DNA from: Chytridium lagenaria
Lineage: Eukaryota; Chytridiomycota; Chytridiomycetes; Chytridiales; Chytridiaceae
Assembly (NCBI GenBank): GCA_025449115.1
Contig: JAHLKC010000037.1
Span: 62,001-126,000 of the forward strand
Reading direction: 5' to 3'
DNA: 64,000 nt
Each line of letters opens with the position of its first letter. The first letter of the stretch is position 1. This document shows, one piece after another, positions 22,689 to 62,770 of this stretch. Made by a program: the position numbers and the translations under genes. Under the pieces are notes generated by a model. It was not told where the DNA came from, made no database searches, and was given only the letters and a program-made list of their open reading frames with translations.

Positions 22689-25580
22689 ATGGCGCAAGAA
22701 ACAAACGAAAAGAATATGTCAAGATGTATCCGTCGATACCGCGGGACCCTCTCCCTCTTTGGACCCGACATTGACGTCCTTGCACCTTCCGCACCTAACC
22801 CGCCTCACATCACACTCCTCCTCCCATCCGAGATGAAAAGCTTACCCTCCGACACGGTTGACGCTGCGTTCGCCGGGCTCAAAGATGCGAGGATCTATCG
22901 GCTCGGTGTGTCAAGTGACGGTTCGTGTCAAGTGATCGCGACGCCTTTGTTGCAAAAAGCGAGGATGGGGCTTGGATTTGGGTGGAAGGATTTTCATGTG
23001 ACGGTTAAGGAGGGGTGTGGAGAGACGGGGGTTGCAGCGGTTGATGTTGGGAGATGTGGGGATCGGGAGTGGGAGAATGAGGTTTTAGAATGTTTGAAGG
23101 AACATGTGAAAGTGTTTGGGAGGACGGCGAAATTGTTTGTTGAGGGTGTGAGTGGACGTTTTGTTGAAAAGATGAGCGATGAAGGACGATGGAGGGTTGG
23201 GTTGGTGATGGCCGGGGTGAAGTTTCGGGAAGGTGATTATGAGGGGAGTCTTGGGGATGCGGTTGGGGTTTTAGGGGAGGTGAGAGGGAGGGAGGTTGAG
23301 GTTGAGGCGCTTGTGAGGGTTGGAGATGCGGCGATCAAGTGTGGGAGGTGGGGGGTTGCGGGGAGGGCGTTTTGGGGGGTTGTAGCGGTGGATAGTGGGA
23401 AGGCTGGGGAGTATGCTTGGGAAGGGTTACGGAAGTGTTGGGGAGAGGAGGGTGGGCGTCGATGGAGCTTGTGCCAATGGAAGGGGATGGCGTGTTGGAG
23501 AGGGTGGAGGTGAGCGAGGAAATGAGGAGGGTGTATGTTGGGAGGAGGTTTGAGTTGGTGGAAGCTGAGAGGGGGACGGAGGGGAGAGAGGTTGAGGAGC
23601 CTAGGGAGAGGTATAGCATCGATCCAGCGTTTTTAAAGGAGATTGTGAGGTCAGATGATTCCAAGAATGGGGCGTATCGACTCCCACGATTCTTCTCATG
23701 GCTTGTTCCACTCGTCATTGCTGGGATATCGACACCGAAATGTGCTGCGGATGTACGAGCTCTCAAGACGCTTGGGATACGCACAGTCATCACGTTGACG
23801 GAGGAAGAGCCACTCCCCGAGAAATGGTTTGACGATGCGATCGTCCGTCATCACTTTTGGCCGGTCCGGAATTACCATCCACCATGTGTATCGCACGCTG
23901 ACCAGTTCATCCGGATTGTTGTTGATGCCGTACACGGAAAAGATCGACATGGTGTGCTTGTGCATTGTGGTGGGGGCAAAGGACGTGCGGGGTCTTTGCT
24001 TGCGACCTACCTCGTGAGGTTTGGGCTGGAGGTGCCCCCTGCACCGTGTGACGAGTGCAAGGATGGTTTGACGTTATGGTGCACCGACTCTTCGTGTTCG
24101 TTTGGCAAGTACCCTGTGATGAATGCGACGGACGCGGTGACGCTGTTGAGAAGGTTGCGGCCTGGTAGTATTGAGACGGAGAGGCAGGAAAAGTTTGTAG
24201 CGGATTACGTGTCGGAGATGTATCGAAGATCTGGGTTTGGAAAGAGGATGGTGGAGGGTGAGGAGGAGGTTGAAGGTGGTGGGTTAGTCGTGGAAGGCAA
24301 CACGGCGAATCCCCCAAAAGTACTCTTACTTTGTGGGTTACCCGGATCCGGCAAATCATGGTTCTCCACCGCCTTGCCGAATCCGAAACCGAATGGACGC
24401 GTCTCTGCCAGGACGACATAGAGGGAAGTCGCGACGCTTTTGAAAACGCCGTCTCCAACTTCAAATCCAGCGGGACCTCCCAGCGTCTCATCATCGATCG
24501 CTGCAACCCGACCGCCGACCAACGTAAACACCTATTTGCTCTCACGAATCTCTCCCGTCCATACGCCATTGTTCACTTCGACGCTGCAGCAAAAACATGC
24601 ACCGAACGAGCGTTCCGTCGTCTAAACCATCCTACCGTCCTCCCCCATTCCGCTGCAAACGTTGTCGCATCGTTTGAGAAAACCATGGAACGCCCGGAAC
24701 TCCGGAAAGACGGCGTTGACATCATTTACCGCGTGTCAACATTCGCAGCAGCCCGTGAGCTCCTTGAACGCTTTGGTGTAAAAACCACCGTGAAAGAACC
24801 ACAGGAAAGCGCAACGCTAAAAGATTCTTTCTTCAAGTACCCTAGGACTCGACATCTTATCGATCTTGGGGAGCTACTCGTGATGATCTTGTGATGGCGG
24901 ATGCGGAGGTTCTCGCGATTCTACAGCCGCACCCAACGCTAGGCGACGTGACTGTCACGGTTGAAGAGAAAATCGACGGTGCGAACCTTGGTTTCAGACT
25001 AGTATGGGACGAGTCCAAGTATTCATTTGAAGTAGTTGCGCAGAACCGTGCGCACGATCGCATTACAGCTGATACGCATGTTCAGTTCAAGGGACTTGGA
25101 GGATGGATCCAAAACCACCGTGATGCCTTGGAAAGGATCTTGAGAGGCGTTGAAGACGGTGGGGATGTTTCGGATGGACCTGGACGGTTTGTGATATTTG
25201 GGGAATGGATGCGGGCGAAACATTCTGTCGCCTATGACCGCCTCCCTGACCTCTTCATCGCCTTTGACCTCTACGACACCCAAGCCCTCAAATTCCTTTC
25301 CCGCCAAGACCTTCCACAATTTTTACGAAACTCTGGAATCGCCCATGTCCCTGTTATAGAACTAGACTTGGCGCGAAAGGATCCCAAGGAGTCTGTTTTG
25401 GAGGCCCTACAAGGGATATCGGCGTTTTCGACGAGTGAGAGGAGGGAAGGGGTTGTTGTGAGAGTGGATAAGGGGGATTGGTTGTTGGAGAAGTGTAAGG
25501 TTGTGAGAAAGGACTTTTTGGCGGGAAATAGACATTGGATGAAGAATAAGGTGGAGTTGAATGGCGTTGTGAGGGATTGA
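22689..25580 (+). CDS. RNA-repair polyprotein: 2H-like domain, helical repeat, DSP phosphatase, P-loop kinase, RNA ligase
   Basis: Intronless gene of about 960 residues, readable after three single-base repairs (near 23450, 24370, 24870). Region 1 (22689-23150) has two HxT motifs, H40-I-T42 (PPHITLL) and H103-V-T105 (DFHVTV), the signature of 2H phosphoesterases. Region 2 (23160-23450) is Ala/Gly-rich helical repeat, TPR-like. Region 3 (about 23600-24230) is a dual-specificity phosphatase with HCGGGKGRAGS (Cys codon at 23966). Region 4 (about 24315-24830) is a polynucleotide-kinase-like P-loop domain, GLPGSGKS at 24334-24357, with a later IDRCNPTADQR segment. Region 5 (24840-25580) is an Rnl2/PF09414-type RNA ligase: KYPRTRHL, nucleotidyl-Lys motif KIDGAN (24969), FVIFGEW, EGVVVRV, CKVVRKDF. 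Together these could heal 2',3'-cyclic phosphate and 5'-OH ends and seal them. Domain calls 3-5 are firm; 1-2 are inference. Confidence 0.85.
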
Positions 25581-47001: not shown

Positions 47002-50000
47002 TTAATCGAAGATAACCTCCACCTCACTATCATAATCATCCACATCCACCACCTCCTCCAGCTCCCCCTTTTCCATCCAAGCCACCTCACTAACCCCCTC
47101 ATCCTCCCTAACCCCATCATCCTCCCGCTGCACCTCATAAACCTCATTCCCCACTTTCGGTCGATACTCTTTCCCATCATGTATAGCAAACTTCCCATAC
47201 GCCTCCACATATTTCCTTGGAAACCCCATAGGGTACCGATTCGGCGGCACCCTATCCAAATGCGACAAATAAAACACATTTTCCTTTGGCGACGCAATAC
47301 CACTAAACAAAAACACTGCCCCACGAAACTCGGCATGATCAAACTGCGTCATCTCTTTACGATCCAATCGACCCATCAAAACATCCCCATGGATCAACAC
47401 CTGCGCGTCACATAATTTTTGTCCAGTGCGTGCATTCTCACGGATACCGTCGAGGTAGGCGAGGTTGGTGAAGAAGGCTTTGGTGAGATGATCGAGAATA
47501 AATGCGATTTGTTGGAGATTCCCCATCTTGGCCGCATCCACAGGATCAAAGAGAGATGAACCAACAAAGTCGTTGGTGTGGGATTTTTGCATCCCCTTTT
47601 TATCCTTCTTCTCCTCCCTATACGATATTTTCACATCATCAATCCAAATCTCATCCAAATTCATCTCATCCCCGCTATCAATCAAATAATAATCCTCAAC
47701 ATCATCCACCTCCGCTTTCGGGCTCAACCCACCGCCGTCCCCCTCCCCATATTCATCCCACGCAACCTGATTCCAATCCTTTGCATCAAAAAAACCATTC
47801 AACACTCGGCACCTCCCACAACCCTCCTCCTCATATACCCCATAACATCCTCTGCGCATTTTCTGCACCTCCTCAAAATCCCCATTCCTCACAAAAAAAG
47901 TTCTACAAAACATCCTCCGTCTCCGTCCCGTCTCCAACCGTCTCCACATCCAATACACATTCAACTTACATATCGTCGCAGGGAGCGACAACAGTTCCGG
48001 CGGACATCCAATCTCCTCAGTCACACCCTGCATGGTCTTTGTGTAAGAGAACGCGGGCTTGAAAACTTCGCGTGACGTTGACAGCGTGGAAGGCCGCGAT
48101 GATGGTGCAGTGTTCTTTGAGTTTAGGGGTGGTGGCTTTGCATCGCCAGACGTCGAGGAGGAAACGGGCGGTTTGGGCGCGAACGTTGTATCGGCCTAGA
48201 TCCATAGCGATTTTGCCGTCAGGGGTGACGGTGTGGCGGTTGTCGTGGGCTTCGATGAACCCGCAGTCTTCGAGAACTTCAAGCGTCCAGGAGATTTCTT
48301 CGTCAGAGGGTCGTGTGAACCAATCGAACCCGTCGACCGTTTCGTACATATCGATGATACCCAGGAGCATGTAATCGAGCTTATAGAAATAAAACCAGAT
48401 TGACAATCAACAAAGTGTTATGTAAAGTACATAAAAAAAAGAGATAAAATAAAAAGAGCCGAGAGTCATTGAGAAAGTACAAAAATACAAAATATACCTG
48501 TTCTGGGTTAGAAAAGATCTGCTCTGGAAAAGATTCCCCCTCTTCAAACGAATAAAGACGATAGCATTTCCCAGGTCCGAGCCTCCCCGCCCGCCCTTTC
48601 CTCTGCAAGGCTGATACCTTTGTCGTCGACAATATCGACGTCCTCTGCACGTTCATGATCGGCATATACGTCACGGAGAACCTCAATCCGGTATCAATGA
48701 CATACCCGATGCGCGGGAACGTCAAACTGGTTTCAGCAATATTAGTGCAGAAGATGACTCGTCGCGTGCCATCGTATCGTAAGGCTTTTTTCCGTTCCTG
48801 TTCGAGTCTTTTTAGTTCTTCACGTCGACGAACGCGTTCGTCGTCGCGTTCTTTTCGCTTTTGCTTTCGATTTTTTTTTGGGCGATGGTGGTTTGATGGG
48901 AGTGCTTGGATCAGAAAGGTCTGCAAAGAAATAAGTATCATGCTGCCACATAATGCAAAAAGCGAGTGAAATAGGTAAAATCGAAAGAGTAATTACCATC
49001 TTCAGGGATTTGAATAACTTCCTTAATTACAATCATTTCCAAGTCATCATCGTCATCAGTGATCTATTACAAAAAAAACCGGTGGTCAAGAACGCATCCA
49101 CCGAATTGAAAAACAAAAGGTGTAGAAATTATAAATATACCTGTTTATGCCCTTGTGATTCATCAGCACCTGCAACCGCCTTCCCCCTATTCATCCCTAC
49201 GTCAAGCGAGTCCTCGATCGATGTCGTAGCCTTTCCATCCACACTCTTCTCGTCATCACTATCCAACAAAATCATACCATCTATCTCCATCAAATCCGTC
49301 ATCGGCTTCCTCACAACTTCCGTGTCGCTATCGCTATCAAGATTGATAACGCCACCGTCAACACGGACCAAAGGGTTGGAGAGTATGCTCCCGCTTGGGT
49401 GATGAAAAAGGTGCAGAGGAGGAAATTGGACCGTTTCGCGTTGGTGATAAAGGCGTTGCAGCGCTGGAGCGGCGAGAGAAAGGGGCTTTCCGTTGGTCAT
49501 GTTGAAGGTTACTCTGAATGGCGTTCATCTTCATCGACCAAATCAATCGTTGATATAACGTCCCGGGGTTTACGCGTTGGGTTGGACACATCTTTCACAA
49601 AACAGGATTAAATTGCGCTGCAGCAGAATACACTAATCTTACCATTAATAATACGGGAGAGGGTATCATTAAGGCTATTCCCTTTACAGACGAAAGTAGG
49701 TGTTAGCAAAGCCAGACAAATTTAAACCGAATCGCACCTTCTCCAGCCCAAATCCCTTTATCCCCAAACACATCCTTCACACCTCCCTCAACATCACTAT
49801 CCCCTTCTTCCGCTGCAGCCGCCCTCCTCTGAATCTCCCCCCACTCCTCAATCCGCCCTCTCTTCAAGATAAACCTTTTATCCTCATCAGGCACCCCTGA
49901 ATGCAACCCAAACGCGAAAATGTTCCGCGCGGCGTCCCCAATCTTTTGTCTCGCGCGTTCTGAAAAGAGGGCGGCGCAGTCTTCAATGGGTTTAGAGAGG

Positions 50001-53000
50001 GGGAGAAAGACGAGAATGTCGGGGTTGTCGTCCATGGGCGTCGTGGTGTGGAGCTCGAGGGCTTTTTCGATGGCCAGGGAGGTGTAGGTCATTTCGTCGG
50101 TGGAGAGGGAGCCCTCATAGAATTCTTCGATAGGGTGGCTTCGGCCGCTTACCTGAGGGAAAGAAGAAACGCGGAAAATAAATTAACACAGATAAACCTT
50201 TGCCAGACGCAAAATTATATGAACATATAAGGCGACTAAAAGCGATATAATTTTATCAAGAGCATTGTTGAAAGAAAACAATGATTGTACAAAGGAGCAT
50301 AACGTCTCCAGAAAAACTCAAACAGAGCGCCAAAAACGGAAATCTTTAAACGTACCTCAATAACGTCACACTTCTCAAAAAACCCAGAAATCTTATCCGA
50401 ATCCACCATGGCCGACATCAAAATCACCTTCAACTCCCGATTGACCTTCAAAGCCTTCCTGACGATCGAAAACAAAAAGTACAATTCTGGTGAATCCTCA
50501 TGCACTTCATCCAAGATAATGACCGAGTAATTCATAAACATCGGGTCCATCCTCGCATAATGCAATAAAATCCCATATGTCGTGCAATTAATGATGGTTT
50601 TATCTTTGTTGACCCTTGCGCGGGATCTTCCGATATGCGAACCAACAGCTTGACCCAGCATTGTATCTCTAGATTGAGCAAGACGTTCGGCGAGGAGAGG
50701 GTGGCCTGACGACGGGGTTGGGCAACGATGATGGGTTTGGAGGGAGTTAAGCGGCCTTGGAAGAAAAGCTCGTTGGCGATAAAGTGGGGAATGCAGGTGG
50801 ACTTGCCGCTCCCTGTTGCGGAAAGGACGAGAGCAACTTTGAGATTCGGACATAAATTGCATAAGCTTCGTACGGGACTCGTAAATGGGGAGCCCGCTGT
50901 CAGCGAGAGTTTAGATATAATGTATAAAGAAATCTTATAACCTTTGGAACATCCATAACTCCATATGCAAAATGACACCGGTATCAACAATAAGCTGAGG
51001 ATCCAATGGCCTTATTTTCCCCTCCAACACGTCCCTACACTTAATCACATCTGACAAAGCCGCATGCCGTTCCTTCATCTTCTCCCACCGTCCCTTAACC
51101 TTCTTTAAGTCTTCCACAGCAGCAAGCCCCTCAGTCATTTTTTCCTTCAACTTCCTCTCCTCGTTTTTCAACTCCTCTAATTTCTCCGTCTCCGCCCAAA
51201 CTTCCTCAGGCTCATACAGTTCCGTCAAGACTTCCTCAACTGCAGCCTTTTCCAAGAGAATCTGCTTATACCGAATCATGGCATGAAACGCATGATTCTC
51301 CTGCATTTCGTCAATGACGTTCTTCAACTCAGCCTCAGCGACCGCAACCGCTTTCGAACATTCCACCACCGTTTCAATACTTAGAAACCGGTTGAAACGT
51401 TCCAGAACTCCCTCATCAAGTATCCCATTGACCATGGGTGAATCCGTGATAAGTCGTTCAGCAAGTCTCATAACCTTCACCGCTAAGTCAATATTCTCCC
51501 TCGCCTCTGGTGGTCGAAACGTGACCATAAACTCCGCATCCTCCCATGTCTTATCTTCATCCCAGCTCATCATAAAAAAGTTCCAAATCGACATGACGTA
51601 TTTCTTCTGTCTCGCTTGAAACTCTATCACATTATTCGACATTCGAATGCACTCGTGCAGTAACAAGTCGATCTCGGTGATGAAGATGTGCGACCATTTA
51701 CAATTTGTTTCTGGATGGCTTTGATGAGAGATTCTACGTCGAGATCCATGTCGTCGACTCCTGCTGAGAACAGCGCGTTGAGAATATTGGTGAGCTCGTC
51801 ACGGGTGAGTTGAGTGCGGGGGGTAAGAGCGGGTGGAGGGCTGATTCTTCTTGGAACTCAAATTTTCGGAGTTCAACGAAAAGAGAGTCGACTTGACCGA
51901 TGAGGGCATCGTTGGATGTTTTAGATGTAAGACGAGCAATAAGGTTGGTTTTATTTCGAGGGGCAGGCTCCTTATACCTTCCTTCTTGAGCTTCAAAATA
52001 AAAACATGAGAAACCTCACATTGTATTATAACGCACACACCTATAATCCCTAACCTCAAGGCCGTCGCCTGTATGCCCGCCTTCAAAACATCAGGCCGAT
52101 AATCAAATGCCTCACATTCAACCAACTCCGACATTATCCTCCTATCCCATATAACCAGAAAAGTATCCCCATCCAAATCCCCTCCACTGCACATATCTGC
52201 AGCAGGTCTCAATCCCTCCGTCGAAAATACAATCACATCCATCAATCCATTCAGAGCCTCACATGGAACCGCGTTTAAAATCACAAGATCTCCCGGGTGA
52301 TAACAGGGATTTCTCACCACACAAACAGGCCCTGTAACAGTCTTGAAGTTTCCAGCGGTTGAGACTCTCACGAAGCATTCGCCAGCTTTCAACAGCCCAC
52401 ACGAATCAGCTACCCCATACAACCGTCTCGAGTCATAAAGAGGTAAAAACACCCTTCTCATTCGATCTCTCGCCCCCATACTCTCAAATTTCGCCAGGAA
52501 ATCATCTCCATGATCATGCAAACTCAACGGCACATTTCCCAGTCCGCCTGAAGGAAGTTCGGTACGGACGTATGACTCAGATTTAGACCAGCGGGAAATT
52601 TCAGATGCTTGAAGGGATTTAAGGTCCTCCCAGATCCGCCGCATAGGCTCTTTACGTATTTCTGGCGGCTTGCGAAGAGCTTCGAGCAGACGCTGAAGTT
52701 CGCTGTGACGGCCCCGGATAAAGAGGTAGTCGATAGCATTCCAGATGTTGATCGTCATGTACATGACGGATGTTTTGTATTGTTGATCTCAGAGCTAGCA
52801 AAACCTACCACATTTAGGACCGATTAGTTTGCTCTTTAGTAAAAAAATGAAAGGAAAGCGTTTGAAGTATTACACAGACTTACGTTAAAGCTCACGCCCC
52901 TCTCCAACAACAGCGTGATCACCTGAGCGTTTAACATTCCACAAGGTTCTGCCTTTGAATACCCCAAAACTGCCATATACAATCTTGACCCATCCAGCGC

Positions 53001-54595
53001 CAGCTTCATCGCCCCTTGATTAAGCTCTTTCACCCACAACTCTCCAACATCCCGATCTGCTAATCCTTCCAACCGTCCCTTTCCTCCCTCCATATCTGGA
53101 TCTCTTACCAACAGCTTCCTCATACTATTTCTTAAAACAACCGTTCGTGGCGACAAACCCACATCCACCACCAATACCCCCTTCACTCCTGGCAATCGAA
53201 CCTGAAAAACACTCGGCATCCTCCCGCGGCCTCGATATTTTGCCCAAACTCACCCGCCAGATCCACGCTAATCCGTCCACATCCATCCGTGAAACAATAT
53301 CCGTTCCTCCCCACATCGTCTTCAATAACTATTTTGACTTTGCTCACCACCAGCGTCGGTCGATCCAGTAATTGAAGAACAGGGACGAGTATTTGGTGAA
53401 TTTAGCGGTGGATGCTATCATTCCTAACCCCGTTATCCCCATCATCGCATCCAGCAACCCCCTCGGTACCATCACGCATCCTCTTGATTCCTCAAGTGCC
53501 CTCTCGTATACGTGAAGAACGCCCACTTTTGAAACCCTTTATGAAGAAAACTCCTATATGCCTCAAGATGCTCCTCATTCCCCGAATCCCCATCAAACCG
53601 CACGTAAATAAACTGTTCCCCGCTCGTGAAAAACCGCGACGCCATGCATGTGGGCGGTGAGCCACGGAAAGCGGTGCGGATGTATTCGGTGGTGACGGTG
53701 TAGGGCATTGGAGTAGGGTTGTTGAGGGGGTAAACGGACGTACAGGTTTGACTGCTATCATGTGAGAGAGGTTGCGTTGGGGTTTGTAAATGGAGTTGAC
53801 TGATTTTCCGCCGCGCATCGGTGGACCACTACGGGGATAATCATCGCGAGCTCCGATGGGACTAGGTTCAGCCGGTTTGGTTGGAGATGGAATTCTTAGG
53901 ATGCTTTGTTTGATGAACACGTTGGGTGTAGTATGGTTTACGGTAAGGATTTCATCGATATCCATTGCTGACTCTGTCCTGCTTTGAAACTCTTTCTCGT
54001 TGTAACGGTTCTTCAAGCCTTTATGCGGTAATCCAGTTCGGCTTTGAGAAATCTGAATACCTTCTCGCATACTCTGCCAACTTGAGTTGGGGTTTTCCGA
54101 AGACGATGAGTCGTAGGCGCCGTTGATGCCTTACCCATAATCGTACTCTGATCATAGCGAGGTTTCTTCAGCGGGCGGCCCAGGTTGGATGATGCGGAAT
54201 CAATGCGACGCTTATTTTCATTAGGCTGGGTGAAGACAGGAGGCTGGAGGATGAGGCCGATGCTGGGGCTTCATCTCCGAACTTGTGCAGCATGGCCTTC
54301 GCCAGTGACGTTTGTTTGAGTACTTTTTGGCGTCACACTAAAAAGATTACGTGTCAGGCATATTCACCAAGTTACTTGCCCTTCAAAACATAAAAAAAAG
54401 GCAGGCGAAAAGATAGATGGTGTGTTTAATAGGACGTCGACAGCAACAGCATAAAATAAAGCATTCCTGGAGTTGAACTTTATCGATTCTAGCATATTGA
54501 AAAAAGCAAAAAGGGTATACTTCTTGAAGTGTTCCATCCGTTATGGTAATCGTGTCTTTTTTCCCCACCTCTGGCACAATTGAAGGAGCAAACAC
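47002..54595 (-). CDS. RNA-dependent RNA polymerase fused to a DEAH/RHA-type RNA helicase
   Basis: Cellular RdRP of the QDE-1/RRF-1 type (copies single-stranded RNA to dsRNA in RNA silencing). N-terminus (54595 to ~53750): low-complexity, with a bipartite NLS-like KRR..KKPR at 54157-54213. RdRP core: FIYVRFDGDSG, HKGFQKWAFFTYTRGHLR, FTDGCGRIS (53267-53293), SVFQVRLPGVKGVLVVD, LNAQVITLLLERGV, NPCYHPGDL, catalytic DLDGD (52165-52179). A coiled-coil linker (51660-50990) follows and reads, via an intron at about 50893-50940, into a helicase: SGLPIYESRTKL, GSGKST (~50797-50814), DEVH (50500-50511), SAM, DILVFLPL, NIAETS, QRKGRAGR (48582-48605), winged helix (48390-48100), OB-fold-like end. At least six single-base breaks. 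Start codon uncertain. No gap, promoter or stop beyond those breaks separates the two halves. Confidence 0.82.
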
Positions 54596-59924: not shown

Positions 59925-60222
59925 TGATGACGGTCTGGTCGGTTCAGCGTTGAGATCTCAATTGTTTTGCAGATGCAAGACGATGAATGTGTCACAAACC
60001 TGCAGAGGCCGACATTAAGTCCGTCGTTGGCCTCCGCGAACATCTGCTGCAGCTTATTTTCCTCCTTAAATTCCCTAAATAGTATCGCTATCACCACCAA
60101 CGTCTTAAGGCGACAAGGTTTTTCAAAGTATCACTCTGAAAGCAGTTTTCCCATCCTTGACCCGCCCTCGGTATAAATTCCGAATACGAACAATTTCAAG
60201 CTTTGTTTCAAGAAAGCAAGGG
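59925..60222. promoter_or_regulatory. Divergent promoter between CASP and the CCCH/CHY zinc-finger gene
   Basis: 298 bases separate the start codons of the minus-strand CASP gene and the plus-strand zinc-finger gene, so both promoters lie here. GGTATAAATTC at 60169-60179 is a good TATA-type element ~45 bases upstream of the ATG at 60223. No other element is recognised. Confidence 0.55.
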
Positions 60223-62770
60223 ATGGAGGGACTCAACGATGCCTCGAAGAACGCCCCAGTGTCCTTGGATACCCCAATTGTTCCCTATGTAACGGATGTT
60301 ACTGTGGCGCCTTTACCGAAGGTAGAGGAGCGCACAAAGTGCAGATTCTTCACCAGTGCGAAAGGATGCCGTTTAGGGTCTGCATGCCGCTTCCTCCACA
60401 TCGCCAAAGCAGTAGTGGATGACTCGAAAGCACTAGAAGGATCAAAACAAGAATTGAACCCGCAAGAAGGACGGTATGGGAAAGGTCCCACGGTCGAGCA
60501 GAAGGAAGGCGTCAAAAACGAATGTCCAAACCCCTTTGTCATTGAGAAAGCTGCGTCACTGGCAAATGGGGAATCATCGGAGACCGCAACATCATCAACT
60601 CCACATATTAAAAAGGTGTTTAATCTTAAGATGGTGGATGGTAAGATGGTTGCAGTGGAAGTAGTTGAACCGTCCAAGGTGGTTCCTTCAAAGAAATCTC
60701 AGGATAAGACTACCGAACCGAAAGCAACGACCGAAACTTTAAAACCTACTAGCCGCTCTAACAAGAAAAAGAAGACAGGAAAGATTGCAGCACCTCCACC
60801 GCAGAAACCATCAGAGCCAGCTTCATCTGCATCTGAACCCTCCATTCTGATCTCTACGAAGGCATTATCCCAAGTTCCACCGCCTCGCGTGCTCCCGTTG
60901 CCCGTCCAGCTCCGCAAACGCCAACCTCCCGTTTTGAAACTGAACTTCTCGCCCTCTCCCGTCGCTTTAAAGACCACTCTTACCGGCCAACCTAATTTTC
61001 GTAAACTTCACGATACCCCAACCACATCTACTTACCATTTCCAACTTACCCCTACGGACCCCGACTTTCCTTTCGACCTCGATCACCTATCCATCGATCT
61101 CAACCTCTTAACCTCGACACTTTATCTGTATCTCATCCACCTATTTCTGGATCTACCATACGCATTCGCAACGCCGATGTGCCTGGTCACCTCGCAAGGG
61201 GAGTAGAGAGAGCTTGGGAACGAACCACAACGGCCATATGCTCATCAAATCCGAACGGGCCTGGAGCCACGCTGCTTGCCATGACGAATTGGGTCGACAT
61301 GGAATTTAGAGAGACTTCTTTCCAGTGTTGAGAGTGTTGGAGTATTACGTTTGTAAAGAATGAGGGTGTCGAGGCAGCACCCGAGAGGATGTGGAAGTGA
61401 AGTCGACATCGCTTGTTGCGAGAGACAATGATGAGGAAATTGAGGGAGATTCAAGGGGTTTTAAGAGCAAAGTATTTTATTATGGTGTGCCTAAGCGAGG
61501 GTGAGGAATCGTCAGATTCTTCAGTTGGGACAGACTTTGAAGATGATGACATTTCGGAACAAGGACAAGCTGACGACGTTGACGCCGAGCTAGAAGAAGA
61601 GGAGGATACACCCGCTTCATCATCTTTCATTCTCAACACTCCCCACCGCGGCGTGCAACTCCGTCTCCCCGACATCCAACTCACTTCCATTTCCCTCTTA
61701 ACCTGCACCTCCCTCTCCCTCCAACTCCGTTGTATCCGGTGCAAAACCGACGTTGATGTTCACAGTCTCACCTCAACGCGTCGTTTCCCATGCATAAAAT
61801 GCTCGACAATGCTGTCGGTGACGTTTCGACCGACACCTGTGCATGCTGAATCGAAGATATGGGATATGTGGATGCGGAGGGGACGAAGGTTGTGGATATG
61901 TAGCCGAGCTCTTGGGAGGCTATGTGTGAATGCGGGAAGGTGAATGCGCCTACGGGTATGTTTAAGGGGTTGGCGAGGGGTGTTGAGGCTGTGGTAGGGT
62001 GTGTTTTGTTTCGCAAAGATGAAGATTTTAAGTAAGTTCTTTTTTTCTCAACTTTTGCACGTTTTTCTTTTACCTCTGGAAATCTTCTTTGACTACCATG
62101 CCATTTGGTCGGTACTCTATTCGACATTTACGTGTTTCTCGCTTTTACGCCGCGCTTTTCCTACTTCAGCTTTCTACGCTTCCTTTCGTCTTTCTTACGC
62201 TCTATTCCCAATTGTTTTTTGTTTTTTTTTGTTTTTTTTTTTCTTGCAGTGAACCACGTCAAGTTCCTTCAACTCTCTGGCTCTTCCACAGAAGCGTCGG
62301 TCCCAACCATGCGAAAGAAAAAGCCCAAAAACGAAGACGCCGGCATCGTCCTCGGCCAGCCCCTACCCAAAAACGGCATCTGCTCTCACTACCGTAAATC
62401 CTACCGCTGGTTTCGTTTCCCCTGTTGTGGCAAAGGTAACCCTGCAACTCCCATTTCCCCAACTCATATTTTTTTTTTCATAGTATACCCCTGCGATCTC
62501 TGCCACGGCTCGAGCGATCATGAAATGGTGTGGGCTAATCGAATGATTTGTGGGTATTGCTCTAGAGAGCAAGCGTATTCTCCGAATAAGGCTTGTGCGT
62601 GTGGACGGGAGCTTACCAGGACGAGTAATAATAAGGGGTATTGGGAGGGGGGACTTGGAACGAGAGATAAGAAGGTGATGAGTCGACATGAAGGGAGGAA
62701 GTATAAAGGGATGAATAAGACTGTGTCGATGAAGTCTACGAGGGTGGGACCGAAGACAGGGAAGAAGTAG
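60223..62770 (+). CDS. CCCH and CHY zinc-finger protein
   Basis: The ATG at 60223 (MEGLNDASKN) starts a protein with one CCCH finger at residues ~40-60 (CRFFTSAKGCRLGSACRFLH, spacing C-x8-C-x5-C-x3-H). A long Lys/Pro/Ser-rich disordered region follows (NKKKKTGKIAAPPPQKPSEP). A mid region holds GHLARGVERAWERTTTA, an acidic patch (61500-61610) and a CxxC pair (CIRCKTDVDVHS..CIKCSTML). After an intron (about 62034-62250) comes a CHY zinc finger: PKNGICSHYRKSYRWFRFPCCGK, intron 62436-62485, then YPCDLCHGSSDHEMVWANRMICGYCS. A Lys-rich tail ends GPKTGKK at 62770. Two or three single-base breaks lie between 61170 and 62040. CHY fingers bind zinc in RNA- and ubiquitin-linked proteins; the CCCH finger hints at RNA binding. 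Confidence 0.86.

Follow-up and report, generated by a model that had tools for sequence, protein, structure and literature searches.

A predicted RNA-dependent RNA polymerase–DEAH/RHA helicase fusion in Chytridium lagenaria

A 64,000-nucleotide stretch of the genome of Chytridium lagenaria (GenBank contig JAHLKC010000037.1, positions 62,001–126,000; the contig is called C37 and the stretch the window) carries on its minus strand the core of an RNA-dependent RNA polymerase (RdRP), followed by a helical region and a DEAH/RHA helicase. This locus raises the question of whether polymerase and helicase are made as one protein and, if so, what such a motor could do for the polymerase. As an overall explanation, we consider it on balance probable, from sequences and structural models, that a QDE-1/RDR-type RdRP core with its neck, a helical linker, and a DEAH/RHA motor form one chain. 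The best reading of the sequence is a one-chain synthase of double-stranded RNA (dsRNA) for silencing, working by a mechanism that we infer.

From polymerase to helicase in one reading unit

The gene has the following features, given in window coordinates together with their basis.

47002–54293, minus strand: whole RdRP–DEAH helicase gene (stop at 47002, start tentative; five paralogous loci share the layout)
53664–54293, minus strand: low-complexity N-terminal part (draft frame broken here; start codon chosen by eye)
52050–53663, minus strand: RdRP core, comprising the end of the slab and both double-psi barrels, with an intron inside (tblastn with paralog C15a; PF05183)
53276–53293, minus strand: RdRP motif FTDGCG (sequence)
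52165–52179, minus strand: RdRP catalytic motif DLDGD (sequence)
50942–51980, minus strand: flap and neck of the RdRP, followed by the helical linker (relative P0140 aligns structurally with QDE-1 as far as the neck end)
50897–50941, minus strand: junction intron, 45 nucleotides, phase 2, GT..AG (splice sites chosen by hand; same site and phase in six of six copies)
50353–50896, minus strand: helicase RecA1 domain
50799–50816, minus strand: motif I, TGSGKS (sequence)
50494–50511, minus strand: motif II, DEVHED (sequence)
50401–50415, minus strand: motif III, SAMVD, with Met at the position of the SAT Thr
49772–50155, minus strand: first part of helicase RecA2 (tblastn)
48860–49700, minus strand: acidic insertion with introns, probably within RecA2 (by eye; shorter in paralog C15a)
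48468–48851, minus strand: RecA2 with motifs V and VI (Helicase_C PF00271; tblastn)
47191–48382, minus strand: winged helix, helical bundle, and OB-like C-terminal part (tblastn; fold of relative P0013)

In the window DNA, one can read FTDGCG and DLDGD as well as motifs I, II, III, V, and VI of the helicase. A PF05183 match above the cutoff (131 bits, in one exon) and the DLDGD catalytic loop identify the first half as an RdRP, and its core has the fold of two double-psi barrels. The second half belongs to the DEAH/RHA helicases by its motifs I, II, V, and VI, motif II reading DEVH; for the helicase of paralog C15a, the 60 PDB matches listed (of 64) were to proteins of the DEAH/RHA type, Prp43, Prp2, and HrpA among them. 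The predicted structure of P0140, a protein from Obelidium, aligns with QDE-1 and RDR2 through the end of the neck; the structural-alignment rows stop near residue 595 and give no evidence against a known fold for the linker. The predicted structure of P0013 shows a complete DEAH fold, in which a winged helix, a helical bundle, and an OB domain follow RecA2.

The original prediction had an RdRP with FTDGCG and DLDGD running into a helicase on the same strand, and this is borne out by the sequence. It also had an in-phase junction after ..LWMFQ, with an intron of about 50 bases and no promoter-sized gap; the sole gap between the two halves is indeed the 45-nucleotide intron (50941–50897), which splices LHMELWMFQ to SGLPIYESRT. 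The connecting region is helical, as had been proposed, but about the first half of it is the RdRP's own flap and neck. The stop at 47002 was retained, but the start, placed at 54595, likely lies nearer 54293 (tentatively, by eye).

It is virtually certain that the window gene makes one fused protein. The alternative is that an RdRP gene and an adjacent DEAH helicase gene are joined only on paper. Consistent with that alternative, P0140 is annotated as a lone RdRP, on a 492-kb contig. However, P0140 ends within the linker, like a cut gene model; the coding parts are just 44–115 nucleotides of GT..AG intron apart, in phase 2, in all six copies found in the genome; and the two halves are joined in at least 19 gene models of the chytrid type and in one protein of the Clytia type that seems to derive from a transcript (both types are described below). 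Given the junction intron in every copy and the fused relatives, we rejected the two-gene explanation, which we regard as highly improbable.

Copies, relatives, and origin of the fusion

The genome searched comprises 41.9 Mb in 356 contigs. A Pfam search for RdRPs gave 13 matches at six places, namely two loci on C15 (C15a and C15b), the window copy on C37, and places on C158, C102, and C145, of which the C158 copy is an allele of the window copy (98% identity over the gene). When each region was searched with the C15a protein, RdRP, linker, and helicase were found on the same strand and in the same order in all six (C15a itself included), each with the phase-2 GT..AG intron at the same junction site. 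The fusion is present at each of the five distinct RdRP loci that the search gave, and the recurrence of the same order and junction at all of them is more than chance. A genome search with the RecA1 domain yielded 22 matches, the fused loci (allele included) showing 51–100% identity; none of the other 11 matches (ten loci, 31–37% identity) coincides with an RdRP match in the genome search. The C15a and C15b genes (C15, approximately 46.6–49.7 kb and 66.5–69.4 kb) are about 17 kb apart, on opposite strands, and divergent.

Relatives were collected as a set of 190 proteins, containing the best 120 of 385 matches to the fused protein and the results of searches with the Clytia protein (29) and with the RdRP part (60), the last of which scored only the 7997 candidates with the most shared words. 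According to local profiles run over these proteins, 39 of them have both an RdRP and a DEAH helicase, with the RdRP first in 38. The exception, P0014, has an extra helicase before a normal RdRP–helicase unit and is probably a run-on gene model. Of 45 fused rows, 43 have a DxDGD motif, recognized by script or visually, and P0013 and P0014 lack it; some models are partial. Among the matches listed (best 120 of 385), the closest protein is from Phlyctochytrium planicorne.

The fused relatives fall into two groups. The chytrid type includes at least 17 named chytrid proteins from nine genera, together with metagenome proteins P0015 and P0016 and Aphanomyces astaci P0017. The genera are Phlyctochytrium and Nowakowskiella, whose taxonomy was looked up (as was that of the acoel named below), and Irineochytrium, Blyttiomyces, Physocladia, Chytriomyces, Rhizoclosmatium, Entophlyctis, and Siphonaria, likewise chytrids; Chytriomyces P0009 is a long unbroken model of 1541 amino acids. 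The predicted order, with the RdRP first and the DEAH/RHA helicase second in a single reading unit, recurs at the five paralogous loci and in relatives from these nine genera. The Clytia type, a second clade, has at least 19 proteins with an RdRP and then a DEAH helicase, from the hydrozoan Clytia hemisphaerica, the acoel Convolutriloba macropyga, the diatom Seminavis robusta, Aphanomyces stellatus, and unnamed sequences; P0129 is, judging by its name, a transcriptome open reading frame (ORF). Beyond the helicase, P0025 and P0028 of the Clytia type have a cysteine-rich, RING/IBR-like C-terminal part (by eye), and P0023 carries PF22191, presumably an IBR family.

The RdRP and helicase trees were quick trees with support from the Shimodaira–Hasegawa-like approximate likelihood ratio test (SH-aLRT) only. 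The RdRP tree (87 rows) was built without C37, C102, P0032, P0173, P0185, P0186, and P0188–P0190 and without rows whose spans lay outside 330–800 residues, and the helicase tree without C158, P0018, and P0001 (too long) and P0125 (too short), and with only every seventh HrpA-like row. In the RdRP tree, each of the two types has an SH-aLRT value of 100 (22 chytrid-type and 14 Clytia-type rows), and both fall, with 12 of 13 RdRPs fused to superfamily 1 (SF1) helicases, into a 51-row group (98), four of whose members have no helicase in their models (P0055, P0120, P0147, and P0140). The SF1-fused P0135 is outside this group, beside another long branch. Four C. lagenaria copies, with the window copy represented by its allele C158, group with P. 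planicorne P0001 (95). Holding together the 36 rows labeled as DEAH-fused (helicase-less P0140 included) was not rejected by the approximately unbiased (AU) test (p-AU 0.659). In the helicase tree, 41 fused rows and P0130 are on one side of a branch with support 88, and joining the Clytia type with DEAH11-like helicases was not rejected (p-AU 0.229). One origin and two origins of the DEAH fusion would both be compatible with these trees.

Altered motor motifs and the role of the helicase

Motif III and the hook-turn were counted from aligned columns, using for comparison 91 unfused DEAH rows (many of them bacterial HrpA) from the best-120 list and the Clytia-protein list. The SAT of motif III is kept in 3 of 44 readable fused rows versus 90 of 91 unfused rows. 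Its third residue is K (3) or M (3) in the six C. lagenaria rows (five loci and the allele); K (11), S (4), T (2), A (2), or Q (1) in the 20 rows of the chytrid type, including A. astaci; and S (17) or T (1), with one row unreadable, in the 19 rows of the Clytia type. In the unfused rows, it is T (90) or S (1), the latter in Clytia P0130, which sits inside the Clytia-type helicase clade. Within the C. lagenaria genome, 7 of the 10 unfused DEAH loci were readable and all seven have SAT, whereas the fused loci have SAK or SAM. The RF of the hook-turn is found in none of the 44 readable fused rows (C102 being unreadable) versus 85 of 91 unfused rows. The C. lagenaria fused helicases have neither the DEAH/RHA-type SAT nor the Prp43-type RF; across the fused helicases, the replacements include SAK, SAM, and SAS for SAT and GK, GR, or GS for RF.

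ATP hydrolysis is coupled to unwinding through motif III, and Prp43 with a mutated hook-turn can no longer unwind, although its ATPase activity persists (PMC5262380). The loss of the SAT Thr and the hook-turn RF argues against a conventional duplex-unwinding helicase. By their sequences, the fused helicases look like modified translocases, and the two losses suggest a translocase or an ATP-gated RNA clamp rather than a strong unwinding enzyme.

Several observations run counter to this picture of a fused, functional enzyme with a modified motor. SAT is retained in 2 of 20 chytrid-type and 1 of 18 readable Clytia-type rows, and the hook-turn RF is missing from the unfused rows P0130, P0134, P0137, P0138, P0139, and P0089, of which P0089 and P0137 bear the names DEAH11 and DEAH12. 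Paralogs C15b and C102 have FTEGCG instead of FTDGCG, and the P0140 model consists of an RdRP and part of the linker, with no helicase. Apparent frame breaks occur in every draft copy, none of which is readable as one clean model, and they lie near the junction in C145, C102 (slightly upstream), and C158 (just downstream).

The frame breaks could mean that the copies are decaying pseudogenes, or assembly-damaged and functionless. Between the window copy and the C158 allele, there are 48 insertions or deletions (indels) in the 7.3-kb gene (41 single-base; 6.6 per kb) and 36 in the 7.9-kb flank (26 single-base; 4.6 per kb). Substitutions amount to 9.2 per kb in the gene versus 2.3 in the flank, a fourfold difference that, like the gene's indels, would fit decay. 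However, the indel rate of the flank is of the same order as that of the gene, which suggests sequencing noise, and DLDGD and the helicase motifs are retained across divergent paralogs. Most exon frame breaks are probably assembly noise, and we consider it very unlikely that the copies are functionless.

The genome has 17 Piwi-domain matches (Argonaute) and two Dicer_dimer matches (Dicer), and since Argonaute and Dicer genes are present, a role of the fused protein in silencing is likely. RdRPs read their template in the 3′-to-5′ direction. DEAH ATPases translocate 3′-to-5′ on single-stranded RNA (PMC6486627), so that a motor on the same strand could travel with the polymerase or winch the template in. 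Of the possible roles, we tentatively favor that of a translocase that would feed single-stranded template to the polymerase; sitting on the template strand, it would pull in the template or clear it ahead of synthesis.

Ranked below feeding, and in our view unlikely, is a helicase that translocates little and acts mainly as an ATP-dependent sensor of RNA, a clamp with a regulatory role, or a scaffold, selecting templates or passing dsRNA to Dicer. The ATP-binding motifs are retained while motif III and the hook-turn, which serve coupling, are changed, as expected for such a device, but the deep conservation of the DEAH fold and of motifs I, II, V, and VI (in most rows) favors ATP turnover. 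Less likely still is product stripping, in which the motor would follow the polymerase and peel off the nascent strand, so that the template is recycled and single-stranded antisense RNAs, not long dsRNA, are made. The helicase follows the neck, at the point where QDE-1 continues into a head bordering the proposed dsRNA product groove, and 3′-to-5′ motion on the template is also compatible with stripping. Stripping, however, requires duplex unwinding, and motif III and the hook-turn are altered.

Known systems and implications

The original prediction stated that no family with an RdRP first and a DEAH helicase second was known. Searches of the literature for a fusion of this type turned up no account of one, many subscription papers lying outside their coverage, and none is given in the available portions of PMC4791657, PMC6396948, PMC12663654, PMC4290597, PMC5262380, PMC6486627, PMC1750930, PMC7763443, and PMC12768352. 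The statement agrees with this literature, but public databases do contain proteins of this type that are annotated yet undescribed.

The Dictyostelium fusions, named RrpA and RrpB, have a Dicer-like helicase. Fusions of an N-terminal DEAD-box helicase to an RdRP occur in Dictyostelium, Peronosporomycetidae, Hydra, and Nematostella, whereas none is reported for Saprolegnia (PMC4791657). In the Dictyostelium and Peronosporomycetidae proteins, as here, a helicase and a cellular RdRP are in one protein; their helicase is DEAD-box and N-terminal, whereas that of C. lagenaria is DEAH/RHA and C-terminal in six of six copies, in line with the predicted contrast to Dictyostelium. Phytophthora cinnamomi P0155 has Helicase_C at 160–265 and the RdRP at 674–1204. 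In this protein, a weak poly(A)-polymerase-like match follows the RdRP (PF22600, 17.4 bits, cutoff 27), and it is perhaps a helicase–RdRP–nucleotidyltransferase chain. The transfer of a Dicer helicase onto the RdRP (a coincidence discussed in PMC4791657) was considered as well and was unsupported, by eye only. The Dicer loci C2 and C45 have frames with a QSRGRAR motif, C2 also with FDEAHH, and a DEAD-type motif II was not seen by eye in the listed frames of C45.

RdRP–SF1 fusions carry a UPF1-like AAA_11/AAA_12 helicase (Fusarium FGSG_09076, P0092; Ascobolus P0069). The RdRP comes first and the helicase second in P0092, as here, but the helicase belongs to superfamily 1, whereas that of C. lagenaria is a DEAH helicase without AAA_11/AAA_12. 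An amphioxus RdRP has an AAA_12 domain, the word helicase being absent from the text of the paper that mentions it (PMC6396948). The RdRP proteins of the SF1 type (AAA_11/AAA_12) were P0069, P0090, P0092, P0132, P0143–P0145, P0149, P0151, P0156, P0157, and P0163; SF1-fused RdRPs came from Fusarium, Ascobolus, Serendipita, Hericium, Effrenium, and unnamed sources, and the order of RdRP and helicase was checked for P0092 only.

The RNA-directed RNA polymerase complex (RDRC) of fission yeast consists of Rdp1, Hrr1, and Cid12, Hrr1 being SF1-like. In Neurospora, the RdRP SAD-1 works with the helicase SAD-3 (PMC7763443). Both systems use an RdRP and a helicase in silencing, as here, but as separate proteins. 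A Chlamydomonas DEAH-box helicase was reportedly found by Wu-Scharf in 2000 to be required for transgene and transposon silencing, the likeness being a DEAH helicase in silencing. QDE-1 and RDR2 have no helicase, and QDE-1 goes on into its head domain (residues 1196–1372; PMC1750930) where the fused family has linker and helicase. It is possible, although we hold this tentatively, that the family represents an ancient eukaryotic class of self-feeding RdRP, in which a linker and a DEAH motor with rewired coupling took the place of the head region and which has been kept in chytrids, oomycetes, diatoms, hydrozoans, and acoels.

Elsewhere in the window, consecutive frames at 22689–25580 on the plus strand encode an RNA-repair-like set, with a 2H phosphoesterase (2H-SAK, 26.8 bits, just under the cutoff of 27), a PTP-SAK phosphatase and the start of a P-loop domain (AAA_33, below cutoff), and an RNA ligase (PF09414, 94 bits). 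An ORF at 60109–61206, also on the plus strand, has a weak CCCH zinc finger match, below cutoff.

Taken with the known fusions, in which a DEAD-box helicase comes first or an SF1 helicase second, the DEAH helicase in second place suggests a recurrent tendency for RdRPs to become joined to helicases. Cellular RdRPs have known helicase partners; where these are separate and transient, the role of the motor in feeding, product removal, or licensing is hard to test; in a single chain, it becomes accessible to point mutants. With five copies in one fungus and divergent animal and algal relatives, the coupling of RdRP and helicase is directly testable. That the motif III Thr is so commonly lost leads to the prediction that the motor works by an unusual mechanism. 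If the reading is true, all RdRP-dependent dsRNA synthesis in this genome would run through the fused enzyme, the sole kind of RdRP found.

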